Of a stretch of 64,000 nt of DNA, positions 7,208 through 29,199 are shown one piece after another. Positions within the stretch are counted from its first letter, which is position 1; every line of letters starts with the position of its first letter. The stretch covers positions 1-64,000 of the forward strand of contig NZ_FTNT01000011.1 in assembly GCF_900156495.1 (NCBI RefSeq), read 5' to 3'. This stretch comes from Williamsia sterculiae. Lineage in GTDB: Bacteria; Actinomycetota; Actinomycetes; Mycobacteriales; Mycobacteriaceae. Below the pieces are notes generated by a model that had not been told where the DNA came from, did no database searches, and saw nothing but the letters and a program-made list of their open reading frames with translations. The translations under genes and the position numbers were made by a program.

Positions 7208-7765
7208 CTATTCACCACTACCTCCCAAGCCACGACGGACCACCGCAAGCATGTGACCCGCCCGATCCGGATGCCCCGCGAACGTCGAGGCAATCGCATC
7301 GACCAGGGCCAGGAGTTCCTCCACCCTGAACTCGGCCGCAGACTCCGGTGCCGCCGCGTGAAGCGGTCGCGCTGCTTCGATGAGAGGCGCCCACAACTGC
7401 GCACCACCGCCTCCGGCCCGTATTGCGGCACCGAGCGCGTCGTCCGCCGCACAATCGCGCACGATTCTCTCGAGCCAACCCCAGTAACCGTTGGGCGAGT
7501 GCTCTGTCGCTGCGGCGTCCGCGACAAATCGGTCGACGGTCGCGGCAAACACGGCCGCCAGCAAGCTCTCACGCCCCGGAAAGTGTCGGTGCAACGTGGC
7601 CGAGCCGACGCCGGCGTCGCTCGCAATCCGTTCCAGCGACGCATTCGGGCCGTCGATGCGGAATGCGCGCTGCGCCGCACCGATGATCAGGTCGCGACTC
7701 CGTCGCGCATCGGCGCGCAAGGGCCGTCCATTCACCTCACTCGCACCGTCCTCGATGATCCTCAC
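7208..7765 (-). CDS. TetR/AcrR-family transcriptional regulator
   Basis: A 185-aa repressor-type protein. The N-terminal HTH is clear (RDLIIGAAQRAFRIDGPNA, then LERIASDAGVGSATLHRHFP), followed by the helical ligand-binding domain with the actinobacterial C-terminal pattern ending in RAGHMLAVVRRGL. It is divergent from the cupin gene at 7863 with about 100 bases between them, so it probably represses that gene and itself. Confidence 0.88.
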   Translation of the reverse strand: MRIIEDGASEVNGRPLRADARRSRDLIIGAAQRAFRIDGPNASLERIASDAGVGSATLHRHFPGRESLLAAVFAATVDRFVADAAATEHSPNGYWGWLERIVRDCAADDALGAAIRAGGGGAQLWAPLIEAARPLHAAAPESAAEFRVEELLALVDAIASTFAGHPDRAGHMLAVVRRGLGGSGE

Positions 7766-12660: not shown

Positions 12661-13866
12661 ATGCCAAACGCAGGCCACGAACTGGCCCCGAACCACGGGC
12701 GGCCGGGTGCCGACTTGGCCGGTCGGCAGGGGAGTGCGTTCGAGCTGTCCGGGCACGCGCAGGACGTGATCACCGCGGCGCTGCAGGACAGCATCGCCCC
12801 GTCGACGCGGCGCAACTACGACCGGGAGTGGTCGCAGTTCACCGACTTCTGTGGACAGCGTGGGTACCCGGCGCTGCCCAGTACCGCCGACGTCGTATGT
12901 AGCTTCCTGCTCGATCTGGAACACCGTGTCGTCGACACCGACGGTGGCACCGGGGTCAGGCGGAGTACTCGGCCGCGCGCATCAACATCGCGCGGTCGGC
13001 GATCGTGCATTTCCACAAGCAACTCGCCGTCCTGGCCGCACCCGGACCTGACGGCATCCTCGAGCCACCGCTGTGGCAACACCCCCGCATTGCTCAGATG
13101 ATGCGCACTATTCGCATCCGCGACACCAGTACACCCCGCCAGGAATTACCGCTGCTGCTCGAGCACCTGCGAACCATGGTCGCCGCCGCCCGTACGGACG
13201 CCACCACCTGGCGTCAACGGTTGCACGAGCGTCGCGACAGTGCACTGCTCATCGTCGGTTGGGTCGCCGCATTACGCCGCTCAGAGATCATCGGCCTGTG
13301 TGTGAACGACGTGACCCTCGGCCCGAGCGGGTGGACCGTGCGGATCGGACGGTCCAAGACCGACCGCGAGGGCAAGGGTACGTTCAAGGCGCTCCCGACA
13401 GCGAGCAACATCGACTCGTGTGCGCCGTGCGCCTATCTGCGGTGGCGCGAATGCCTCAAGGCCTTCGACAACCAGGGCCGACCCGGACTGATACGACTAC
13501 TGGCCAAGAACAACACTTTGACCACGCACATGTGCGGCCATGCGCCGGCGGGACGCCCCCCCGAGGGTGACTTGTTCCGGTCGATTTTGCGTGGCTGCGA
13601 CCTGGGCGGCACCGCACCCCAGGGACAGCTGGTGCACAGGGTGGTCCGCCGGCGACTACACCCGGTGGCGGCCAGCCTGCACTGCGACACCACCAGCTTC
13701 GGTGCGCACAGCCTGCGGGCCGGGTTCGTCACCGAAGCACTCCGCCACGGAGCAAGCCCCGAAAAACATCACCCGCCAGACCGGGCAAAAGTCCTACGCC
13801 TGGCGTGAATACGTACGCGAGACCGACATCTACACCAGCAACGCCGCCGTCACGATAGGTCTCTGA
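12661..13866 (+). pseudogene. Tyrosine recombinase/integrase broken by two frameshifts
   Basis: An intact reading would be a site-specific recombinase of about 400 aa. The SAM-like core-binding domain is present (SIAPSTRRNYDREWSQFTDF), as is the catalytic domain with AALRRSEIIGL (Arg I), FGAHSLRAGF (His-x-x-Arg) and, in another frame, QTGQKSYAWREYVRETDIYT carrying the nucleophilic Tyr. Two frame changes are needed: near 12955 (one base missing within a G-rich stretch) and near 13760 (one extra base in an A-run). All catalytic residues remain encoded, so this is a recent loss or an assembly indel. It is followed after 2 bases by another broken gene of the same element. Confidence 0.75.
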
Positions 13867-18476: not shown

Positions 18477-18543
18477 TATCGCTGATAACGGTTATTACGC
18501 CATTTTGGCTTCGTTGCGATGGTTTTCGCTCGAATGAGCAAAT

Positions 18544-24928: not shown

Positions 24929-25320
24929 ATCCGGTCAACGTAACAGTGCCGAGACTGCCCAGTCCCGCGGTTTGTTGTCAGTAGGGCAGAGCGTGTATGT
25001 AGAGCCACGTACTACGGTCGCGGGCGTGTGGGTCGAACCACGCGTCGAGGTCTCCGCCCCGTTCGCCCGACGGTGCGGGCCCGGTGTTGTACGTGGGTCG
25101 CGGCCGAGTGCACGTCATCAAGCTCGGGGAGGGTGGGGGACCGTGATGTGACGGGTCTCGCCGGGTCACCGAGGTGCCGGAATCGGAGGACCCGCATCGA
25201 AACCCTGCCTGGCCAATAATGCTGTCTCGCATGGCAGCAGTGCCAGCGTCAATCACAAGGTACGCCGATGACGAGCCCTGGTACTGCGAGGTCACCTCAC
25301 CGTATTCGTGGTGCTGTGCT
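24929..25320. other. Gene-free stretch
   Basis: About 390 bases with no supportable gene. A minus-strand frame across it has no recognisable domain or start signal. It lies between a conserved hypothetical gene and the 3' end of the recombinase trio, so it may contain the end of that element. Confidence 0.35.
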
Positions 25321-26753
25321 CTACACGGACCCCCATGCTGCCGACGATCCGTTGGAGTGCTTCTAGTGTCGCGGGGTGGTATCCGAGGGTGTCGGCGAGT
25401 ATCGCGACGGGTGTTGTTTTCGACAGTCTGTCAGGGTGCCGAGGCGGGCGGCGAGTGCGGCGAAGAGGGGTTTGAGTCGTAGCCGCAGGTGTGCGGGGTC
25501 GATGTGGTTTCCGGGGGTGTAGCCGCGGAATACCCATGGTGAGTGGGGGTGGGCGGCGGTTTGTCCGTGGATGTTGTCCGCGGCCAGTGCCCGGACGGGT
25601 TCGTCGAGGGGTGGGGCAGGGTGATTGGGTAGCTGCCCAGTTGCAGGGTGACGCCGGTGTCGGTGACGATGATGTCGTTGCAGGTGAGGTTGCTGATTTT
25701 CTCGGCTCGTTGGCCGAACACGATGATCAGGATGGCTACGAGCCGGTCGCGGTCGGTCAGATCCTCGGTGTACACAACCTGCTGGACTGCTTCGGTTTGG
25801 GATTGAGTGTCGAGCCGGGTGGCGGTTCCGCGTCGGTGCTGTACGACGGTGAGGTCGGCGGGAACAATTCGTGTGGCGATCGCCCAGCGAATGAATCGGT
25901 AGACATGTCCGCGGGTGCTCGTGCCGCCGGGTTGCCAGGCGTCGATCTCGTGTTGGCCGGCTTGGGTGAGCGTGAGTCCGTGTTCGAGGGTCAACCAGTT
26001 GCAGTACTCGATGGCGACGGTGAATAATTGCTTGGCTCGCAGGAACGCGGAGTTGCTGATCGGGGACGAACTGCGCAGATGGCGCAGCAGTCCCCACCGG
26101 CGGAATTGATCGATGATTATCTGCTGTTCGGGATCGATCACCCGTTCCTGTTTATCGAGTGCCCACATCTCGAATCGTGCCAGCAGCTCGTCTCGTCGTG
26201 GGAGCACACCGTGTTCCACGAGCAGCGCCCTCATGTAGTTCGTCGTCTGGCCGGTGGGCAGCGCGTCGACTGTGTCATGGTCAATGTTGTTCTGCGCGGC
26301 GAGCTGTGTGAGGAACTGTTCGACATGTGGTTGGCGGATCCAGGTCAGGCCGCTGTTGGGTCGTTCCATCGCGCCGAGTGCATCGGCGATCACCGTCAGC
26401 TTCGGGTCCACGTTTCCGGTGTCGGGGTTGCGTAGTAGCTCGGTGGCGGTGTACTGCAGGATGCACCGCTGGCAGCGCCCGCCGCGGTACAACTCGGTTT
26501 CAGCGCCGCACTCGACGCAGTCCACGTTCAGGGTGATATCGCTACAGCGCGGGCAGGCCGGTGCACCATCGATAATTCCTGGCAGGACCCCTTCGTGTCC
26601 GCAGGCGCAGCGTCCCGTGGTGCGTTTAGCCGCTTGATAGCAGTTGCCGCACACCAGGCCTTCCGGCCACCACGCGGCCGGCCAATAGCATTTGCCGCAC
26701 CGATCACACGGTGAGTATTTGTCGGGTTCTTCGGGTTTACGTGGTCTGGCGAT
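25321..26753 (-). pseudogene. Zinc-ribbon tyrosine recombinase (third gene of a recombinase trio), frameshifted
   Basis: The N-terminal part has several Cys pairs (CDRCGKCYW, CGNCYQAAK, CACGHEG, CPRCSD, CVECGAE, CQRC), a multi-zinc-ribbon region, followed by recombinase sequence (LVAILIIVFGQRAEKISNLT). Later segments are in other frames: APPLDEPVRALAADNIHGQT, HLRLRLKPLFAALAARLG, then TTPVAILADTLGYHPATLE and HSNGSSAAWGSV. Frame changes are needed near 25600, 25415 and 25350. Translation probably began at the codon at 26753-26751, read as ATC: the expected start MARPRK appears as I-A-R-P-R-K. The gene is therefore inactive. Confidence 0.7.
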
Positions 26754-27102
26754 CGGGATCCTCCACTACGCGGATACGGTGAGCGATCGGCCCGCCCGGA
26801 GACGGGCGCAGGCCGAGAGCGCGGTCAGGCGGTGCGTGCGCGGTTTTGGCTGCTCGCATTTCCACGAACGGTTCGAATAGGTCGCCGGGGGAGCAGTCGA
26901 AGATGTCGCATAGCGCGGCCAGTGTCTGTGACGAAATGCGCTGTGGCTCCGTGGTCACGAGCCCATAGATTTGCGCATCAGAGAGGTGGATGCCACGCGA
27001 TTGCAGCAACGGTTTCAGGTCGGTCGATTTCCAGAGATTGTGGGTGGCCATGACAGTGCGCAGGTGCCAGTGGAACCCGATCCGGCGTTGTTCACCGCTC
27101 AT
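26737..27102 (-). CDS. XRE-family helix-turn-helix protein (second gene of a recombinase trio)
   Basis: A 121-aa protein whose HTH covers about residues 20-75 (LKPLLQSRGIHLSDAQIYGLV, then RISSQTLAALCDIFDCSPGDLFEP). ATG 27102 overlaps the upstream recombinase stop (ATGA), so translation is coupled. Its last codons overlap the start region of the third gene. It probably acts as regulator or accessory factor for the element's recombination. This gene is intact, unlike its two neighbours. Confidence 0.75.
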   Translation of the reverse strand: MSGEQRRIGFHWHLRTVMATHNLWKSTDLKPLLQSRGIHLSDAQIYGLVTTEPQRISSQTLAALCDIFDCSPGDLFEPFVEMRAAKTAHAPPDRALGLRPSPGGPIAHRIRVVEDPDRQTT

Positions 27103-28214
27103 GGTTGCCCTTCCTTCGCGGTCCGGCGGTTGATCATGTGCTGGATCTTGCGGTTCTTGAAGTCGTCACCCACCGATGAATACAACGCGGTCGTTGACGA
27201 GTTCAGGTGGGCGAGCTGCTGCTGAACGAACTGTTCTTTGTAGTCGGCTTCTAGCAGGTGGGTGGTGTACTAATGCCGAAGCGCGTGCAGACACAGTTCG
27301 GTGGGAAGCCCGGCCCGGTCGCGGTGAAAGGCGAACGAACGTCCCAAGGTGCCGAGAGTGATCCGCTCGCCGCGTTCGCTGGGCCATAACGCCCGTGATC
27401 GCTCGGCGGTGGTGAATATTTCGCGGCCGTCAGTGCACCAATACTCGAGCAGCTCGACCACCCAGGCGAAGCCGGGAACGGTGAGAACCGTCCGTCGCCG
27501 GGGGCCCGAGCCACGTGTTCCTTTGGCCCATCGCACGGTCAACGCACCGTAGCGTCTGTACTGCGGCACGTAGGGATTCGGCCCGAAATCGATGGTGTCG
27601 AGCATCGTCAGCTCGCGGCGGCGCAGCCCGTAGGCGTAGGCCACCTTGAATGCCATGGAGTCACGCATCACCGTGCGCCATTGTTTTCGGTTCCGGGCGT
27701 GCAGGTCGTCGACATAGTCGTCGATGCAGTCGAACACCTGTTGCAGCTCCGGTCTGGTAAAGGCCCGCCGCCGTGTCGGCATCGCATCATCGGCGCTGTG
27801 TCGCGGGGTGTTCCATTCGAACCGGATCTGGATGGGATGGGTGCCGAAGTACTTATCGCACACCTCGGTCCACATGTACCGCGGATCGGAGATGTACTCG
27901 CAGAACATCGCGATCGCATTGCTATACGTTCGCAACGTGCGCACCGTGATCGCTGAACTCGCCAGTCGTCGTTCGGCCATATAGTCATCGAGATCCTGCG
28001 GCCGCCAATGCCACGGATACTCGTTGGTGTAGGTGAAGAATCGGTCGACGAGCTGACAGCGTGGCGTGATCGTCGCCGGCACCAGCCCTCGAGCGAGCTG
28101 CTGCGAGCGCCAGCCGTCGAGCATCGCCTCATACACACGGTCCTCCGCGCGGATCACACCAACATCGCTGGTGGAAAACACCTTTGGTGCGAAACCAGGT
28201 AATTCCTCGGACAC
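27099..28214 (-). pseudogene. Tyrosine recombinase (first gene of a recombinase trio) with in-frame TAG
   Basis: A 371-codon recombinase interrupted once. The core-binding domain (YEAMLDGWRSQQLARGLVP, ITVRTLRTYSNAIAMFCEYI) and catalytic Arg I (AYGLRRRELTMLD) are intact. The His-x-x-Arg motif HALRH is followed directly by TAG (27272-27270), where homologues normally have Ser or a similar residue, and then by YTTHLLEADYKEQF, LAHLNSSTTALYSSV with the nucleophilic Tyr, and the end AKEGQP. Without readthrough the protein lacks the active Tyr. One base change would restore it. Adjacent genes overlap by 4 nt. Confidence 0.75.
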
Positions 28215-28245: not shown

Positions 28246-29199
28246 ATTAGCGAAGCGGCCCGGCCTCGCGCGCGGGCATGACGAATACCGGCCATGTGCG
28301 TAAGGAGGGGCAAGTGCGTCAGACGTCCAGGCCGGGCTCAACACTGGTCACACCTGGAAAGAACTCGATCAGCCTGTGCAGGAATCGATCATCTAACGAA
28401 TGAAACGTAGCCCGACCAGCGCGAAGCCAGCAACGCGTGCCACACAGTGTTTGACCCGATGCTCATCACATCCGTTGCACAGCAACGACTGCCGGAATAC
28501 TCACCGAGCTGCGAGTCCTTGCATCTACTGCAACTCGCTATGTTTGCTCGCCGATAAGAAACATTATGTCAGGTTAAGGCTGGAAAGCTTTCTCTTGGGT
28601 CTCTAGGTTTCTCTCAATGGGTGTCGGGTGACACCGCACCTGAGACTTTGCCACCCTAGATTGAGACTCGATGACAGCTGTTCCTCCACCGAAACTACGG
28701 GTCGGCGCTCCCAAGAAGGTGTCATCACTGCCAACTACGGTGTCATCCGACATGGTCCTGAGCATAATTGCGAAAATCACTGTCGGACAGCGGCATGGGA
28801 CACGAACATCATCTTCGGCCAGCGGTAGATGTCTGTGATGATGAACTGTTCGTGAGGATGATCGCTGACCGCATCAGTCGAGTTACACGACCACTGCGGC
28901 GGTTACGTGATCGAACAGAAACGGTGACCTCACCGATATCCCGACTGCGCTCGTCCGCATGGGGATCACCGAAGGCATCCGTTGTACACGGGAGCATCGA
29001 GCGGAAACGGGCTCAAAATCAATTGCCCGATATGACTTATTCGGCTCACGTTGATCACGCGCCCCAGATCGACCTCACCATTGCTCGGACACGGTCTCGA
29101 TGATGTATCCGGAGAGCGTTGATCAGCATGCTCCGTGCGGATCAATAGTCCGAGACGTACCACCTATGCGCGCAATACCGACGGATTCATGCGGGCGAT
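28246..29199. other. Gene-free stretch containing IS-end-like repeat copy B
   Basis: About 950 bases without a supportable gene. The only recognisable structure is the repeat at 28622-28735. Composition is less GC-rich than that of the flanking chromosome, in keeping with old accessory DNA. Confidence 0.4.
28622..28735. repeat. IS-end-like repeat, copy B
   Basis: It starts TGTCGGGTGACA, continues with TGAGACTTTGCCACCC and TGAGACTCGATGACAGCTG, and ends CTCCCAAGAAGGTGTC. Its first half matches copy A at 18544-18600 almost base for base; the second half matches copy A with an insertion between. A further GAACAGAAACGGT is shared (28914 and 18634). The repeated TGTCGGGTGACA/GGTGTCA motifs resemble IS21-family ends, so these are probably two remnants of one element type. 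Confidence 0.5.

Follow-up and report, generated by a model that had tools for sequence, protein, structure and literature searches.

In the genome of Williamsia sterculiae, a stretch of 64,000 nucleotides (hereafter the window) contains three overlapping genes on its minus strand, which encode a tyrosine recombinase interrupted by an in-frame TAG, an XRE protein that is intact and a Cys-rich protein whose frame is broken. What did this trio once do, and does it matter that it lies next to dif, the site at which chromosome dimers are resolved? The analysis described below makes it very probable that the trio is a recently inactivated copy of the module by which a family of site-specific transposons of Actinomycetota recombines, with dif serving as the landing mark.

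The original prediction for this region described three genes in one direction with short overlaps, and this arrangement was confirmed. Gene 1 (27099..28214, minus strand) is a tnpA-like tyrosine recombinase pseudogene that begins with GTG and ends with the stop codon at 27099-27101; with an X put at the TAG, its product matches PF00589 (E 6e-14). The TAG (27270..27272, minus strand) was rightly placed directly after the LHALRH motif and before the nucleophilic Tyr. The further statement that everything downstream of the TAG is intact holds for the 56 codons that remain open and span the GH and Tyr motif region, but not for the conserved GH itself, which has become AH in the window copy. Intact trios, which the prediction had proposed to seek, do exist elsewhere, and one of them, a sister copy in Jongsikchunia kroppenstedtii (L002) that is 81.5% identical to the window over 3.2 kb, has all three genes intact and a Ser codon at the TAG position. 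The stop of gene 1 and the start of the XRE gene overlap by 4 nt (ATGA, 27102-27099). The XRE gene (26737..27102, minus strand) is indeed undamaged, with an open frame of 121 aa that matches HTH_26 (Pfam E 7e-15), and it overlaps gene 3 by 17 nt. Gene 3 (about 25300..26753, minus strand) is a pseudogene. Comparison with the sister copy bears out both of the defects ascribed to it: the start codon reads ATC (26753-26751) where L002 has ATG, and one-base indels, as read from the draft assembly, are located near 25617, 25426 and 25340. Relative to L002, dN/dS is 0.08 for gene 1, 0.10 for the XRE gene and 0.17 for gene 3. These values suggest that the trio genes were selected until recently and therefore that the window copy lost its function only recently.

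The residues R-K-H-R-H-Y of TnpA are kept in practically all of 53 relatives, and judged by its catalytic residues, gene 1 alone appears to be of the active recombinase type. The prediction of two tyrosine recombinases must accordingly be reduced to one. In the third protein 12 Cys are conserved, most of them paired as CxxC. Some family members give a weak integrase match, but the alignments indicate that the first Arg, His and Tyr of the catalytic set are missing. The best PDB matches of its structure model, which is of high confidence (pLDDT 88.6), are tyrosine recombinases, with XerH-difH first (E 2e-5, TM 0.37-0.48). The model and the sequence together indicate a protein that combines Zn ribbons with a tyrosine-recombinase fold from which the catalytic residues are absent. 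The XRE protein belongs to HTH_26 and not to DUF6262, which is the family of the TnpC-type partner in a Tn554-like pair that lies near a related trio (locus L133).

A pattern scan located dif, CTGACATAA-TGTTTC-TTATCGGCG, at 28549..28572 on the minus strand, 334 bp upstream of gene 1. The original prediction placed the trio within 25321-28214 but stopped short of this site, although the element reaches to about 28545 at its left and adjoins dif there; the defining feature was thus missed by a small distance. On the opposite strand TTATCGGCG reads as CGCCGATAA, the XerC arm, and the arms CGCCGATAA and TTATGTCAA surround a 6-bp spacer, with one mismatch at the outer base of one arm. These are the arms of the Frankia alni dif, CACGCCGATAATGCACATTATGTCAAGT (PMC3025954). 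The inner pattern has two exact matches in the 4.44-Mb genome, the window site with its spacer TGTTTC and a site on a 92.5-kb contig (C1) whose spacer is unlike those of chromosomal dif sites. Among the 61 genomes of our set, 52 contain a dif match with at most one mismatch; it is usually single and its spacer usually begins with TGT, as does that of the window site. The cumulative GC skew peaks at 24-28 kb, although in this draft assembly the change is weak, and intact XerC and XerD genes are present elsewhere in the genome. By its sequence the window site appears to be the chromosomal dif of the host. Contig C1 carries several dif-like sites (C1:89686-89707, C1:3201 and C1:9024), one of which, in the segment G000:C1:80000-92517 (L089), adjoins genes for an ArsR-type regulator and a heavy-metal P-type ATPase. 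These have the look of pdif-type modules in an actinobacterium.

Is this proximity to dif a property of related trios as well? The homology between relatives begins at TTGACATAA-N6-TTATCGGCG, at a distance of about 1.34 kb upstream from where the XRE gene starts. When trio loci with enough upstream sequence were scanned, a dif-like site (at most 3 mismatches) was found 1.1-1.75 kb upstream of the XRE gene in 33 of 50, whereas none occurred in 424 equally long control windows drawn from these loci. The 17 loci with no such site at this threshold fall mostly outside the two dif-associated clades described below, suggesting that dif is the target for only some members of the wider trio family. 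The trios outside these clades use other targets, and a motif scan gave none common to them. In L133 and L134, a related trio whose third protein has 806 aa interrupts, near position 7718, the very end of the coding sequence of another tyrosine recombinase, in its last codons and just past the catalytic Tyr, which looks like another conserved target.

The position at which the element joins its target can be read from relatives that carry several copies. Frondihabitans sucicola harbors a 19.2-kb element bounded by 63-bp terminal inverted repeats that surround a palindromic motif, an inverted copy of which is present at the right end. Its chromosomal and plasmid copies are 99.96% identical and each is located at a different dif-like site. 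The two copies diverge in the spacer of dif, in its near arm and immediately beyond that arm; from there on they match as far as the right end, ...CCAGTA. This divergence through dif and the near arm implies that the whole of dif belongs to the target. A crossover within the spacer was rejected, since the copies also differ in and after the TTATCGGCG arm. In Rhodococcus qingshengii JCM 15477 four plasmids each carry a copy of one element, and the dif-like site beside it differs from plasmid to plasmid. In these copies the common sequence always begins at the same base, 3 nt outside TTATCGGC[GA], and the right end CCAGTT is constant despite the differing left flanks. The comparison of occupied and empty sites that had been suggested for defining the element could be made in these relatives, and for one R. 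qingshengii insertion the exact empty site, TTATCGGCGAAC^GTATGGGC, is known in four other plasmids. When the same site is occupied, TTATCGGCGAAC is followed by the element (AAGAAGG...CCAGTT) and then by GTATGGGC, the right junction being TTACCAGTT joined to GTATGGGC. In this resolved case nothing was duplicated, lost or left behind. The sequences thus place the insertion precisely 3 bp beyond the 9-bp arm of dif, or 1 bp beyond the 28-bp site. Together with the frequencies given above, the empty sites and the occurrence of four sites in a single strain argue from sequence that dif has been targeted by independent insertions. The earlier view of the trio as a mobile element that has decayed was right.

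Three further arrangements were encountered in these loci. In L122 and L124 (plasmids pdjl-6-1 and pdjl-6-3), the element and more than 11 kb of right flank are common while the dif-like sites and left flanks differ, with the switch at the element's left boundary, which suggests one-ended recombination at the left end. Locus L135 contains, at position 12817 and 5 kb downstream of its first dif-like site, a second, degenerate one accompanied by the element left-end motif, apparently the remnant of a tandem insertion. Finally, on the Frondihabitans plasmid (L092/L093), what seems to be the left end of another, older element lies directly outside the right end, an arrangement that would follow if each new insertion were always placed beside dif.

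Alignment of its left end with those of the relatives places the left end of the window element at about 28545. By the relatives' rule the insertion point would be 28546/28545, with a 3-nt gap (28546..28548, minus strand) between the dif arm and the element. The same alignment identifies the palindromic motif GCGAGTTGCAGTAGATGCAAGGACTCGC at 28511..28538 (minus strand), a likely protein-binding site. A search of the window for the inverted left end, for dif-like sites and for CCAGTN did not reveal the right end. A weak dif-like match at 18480-18503, with 4 mismatches and a spacer (TAACCG) shared with the weak match at C1:9024, was dropped as a candidate because the right ends of the relatives carry no dif. 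An empty site for the window copy was not found, and tblastx of the window flanks against twelve dif loci of relatives yielded noise. Our statements about movement rest on the relatives, the copy in the window being inactive. Because its right end was not located, the genes to the right of the trio in the window, an unassigned ORF followed by GntR, MFS and NMT1 genes, cannot be ascribed to the element. To the right of the trio in L002 there are genes for ArsR, an SBF-family transporter (the family to which Acr3 would belong) and arsenate-reductase-like proteins; in L016 a cadmium transporter is found in this position.

The related elements do not all lie on the same side of dif. In a TnpA tree, the elements on the XerC-arm side, including that of the window, form one clade (support 99/98) and those on the XerD-arm side another (100/99); shuffled side labels never cluster as well. 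In two loci, L013 and L123, a single dif-like site is flanked on one side by a trio of the first type and on the other by a trio of the second, and in L135 divergent recombinase-XRE pairs flank the dif-like site. The right end of the XerD-side element in L123 is again CCAGT. For this side the empty sites are taken from homologous rather than identical plasmids: in one element-free plasmid the homologue of the L123 right flank joins the dif-like site at TTATGTC..CCT^GTCGATG, and in a second it likewise joins 3 nt outside the arm. The two clades thus share one geometry and differ in the arm; the phylogeny of the recombinase predicts the side.

Constant spacing to dif would also be expected if the trio were no transposon at all but a resident dimer-resolution system linked to dif, as streptococcal XerS is genetically linked to difSL (PMC2731167), and the closest solved structures to the third protein are in fact Xer recombinases on dif. 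We nevertheless regard this as very unlikely. The host has its own XerC and XerD, and the trio is patchily distributed (an XRE match is found in 15 of the 61 genomes), occurs in several plasmid copies per cell, has terminal inverted repeats and cargo and may lie on both sides of one dif; a resident system is, moreover, contradicted by the occupied and empty sites. Those sites bear equally on the idea that the element is a pdif module or an IMEX, carried from one dif site to another by the XerCD of the host, the recombinase genes being passengers. IMEX such as LME-1 and GGI do integrate at the dimer-resolution site, and they carry a dif mimic, use the host Xer proteins and duplicate dif (PMC9765430, PMC5357621). 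Plasmids bear dif-like sites, and in the window genome a metal-resistance gene pair adjoins one. However, each trio element has a single dif and a right end with none, and the common sequence begins outside dif instead of in the spacer. The trio thus appears, from its boundaries, to fall outside the IMEX and pdif classes. For the resolved copies passive movement of this kind is refuted, and for the family as a whole it is very unlikely.

A somewhat less improbable alternative, though still an unlikely one, is that this is an element of the Tn554, SE or GInt type in which adjacency to dif has been inherited by ancestry and dif is not functionally recognised. The operon logic is similar, with a recombinase, a dead recombinase-fold protein and a small DNA-binding protein (PMC10214605). 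Against inheritance alone, adherence to dif is seen in two diverged clades, which occupy opposite sides at equal spacing, and within one strain each of the four separate targets on plasmids is dif-like. We retain the interpretation of the trio as part of a transposon that uses dif as a landing mark.

Comparison with described systems places the trio outside each of them. The SEs (strand-biased circularizing elements; PMC10214605) and GInts share with it a target-specific left-end operon with a catalytic tyrosine recombinase and a fold protein devoid of RHRY, Tfp or GinC (PMC10214605, PMC5385486), and the third protein may be regarded as similar in kind to these (PMC10214605). However, the SEs and GInts have two catalytic recombinases plus Srap or GinD and reside in proteobacteria (PMC10214605, PMC5385486), whereas the trio has one RHRY protein, an XRE protein and Zn ribbons. 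Further, Tn554 and SEs copy 6 bp from the left of the donor site to the right of the new one, a footprint that is absent from our resolved case. Tyrosine-recombinase transposons of the Tn554 type are found on actinobacterial plasmids and chromosomes, and they encode a short and a long (611-828 aa) recombinase plus TnpC (PMC3414803); in the trio the small gene is HTH_26 and occupies the central position, and a third protein predicted to be catalytically dead stands in place of a second active recombinase. RIT elements also consist of three overlapping genes in one direction, but all three encode recombinases (PMC3414803, PMC8138268), in contrast to the single trio protein with catalytic residues. 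The suggestion that the XRE gene and the Cys-rich third gene are distinctive relative to Tn554 and RIT has therefore held up. The closest parallel in target choice is provided by the IS1202 family (ISAjo2, ISAba71), known dif and pdif site hunters, which like the trio adjoin chromosomal dif and plasmid (p)dif in one orientation and leave dif intact (PMC10132070). These are 1.5-kb elements with a DDE transposase that insert 5 bp from the XerC site with a 5-bp target duplication (PMC10132070), whereas the trio element has a tyrosine recombinase, inserts 1 bp outside the 28-bp dif with no duplication and chooses its side by clade. A replicative element of Rhodococcus jostii (PMC12169178) looked unrelated. 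In the open-access literature we found no report of a tyrosine-recombinase element or trio with dif-adjacent insertion.

In the mechanism that we propose, TnpA would exchange strands between an element circle, the presumed intermediate, and DNA 3 bp outside one 9-bp dif arm, the arm itself most likely forming a half site for TnpA. The third protein would most likely serve as a DNA-binding partner or target selector, and the XRE protein would most likely bind the end palindromes and control direction or expression. By landing just outside dif with no duplication, the element would spare dimer resolution, and XerCD would be unable to excise it, a benefit shared with the DDE elements of the IS1202 family (PMC10132070). 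A more speculative extension, which we regard as possible but doubtful, is that TnpA or its Zn-ribbon partner docks on XerC in one clade and on XerD in the other, so that the Xer-dif complex itself serves as the address. If true, this would be a protein-guided mode of targeting for a tyrosine-recombinase transposon.

Insertion next to dif is already known for DDE elements of the IS1202 family. The elements described here would represent a second mechanistic class of mobile elements that hunt for dif, one in which insertion is conservative and sister clades use the two sides of dif. Their existence helps to explain the presence of metal-resistance cargo at dif-like sites on actinobacterial chromosomes and plasmids. 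The loci in which XerC-side and XerD-side trios are paired at one dif make the reading of a target by a tyrosine-recombinase transposon directly testable.
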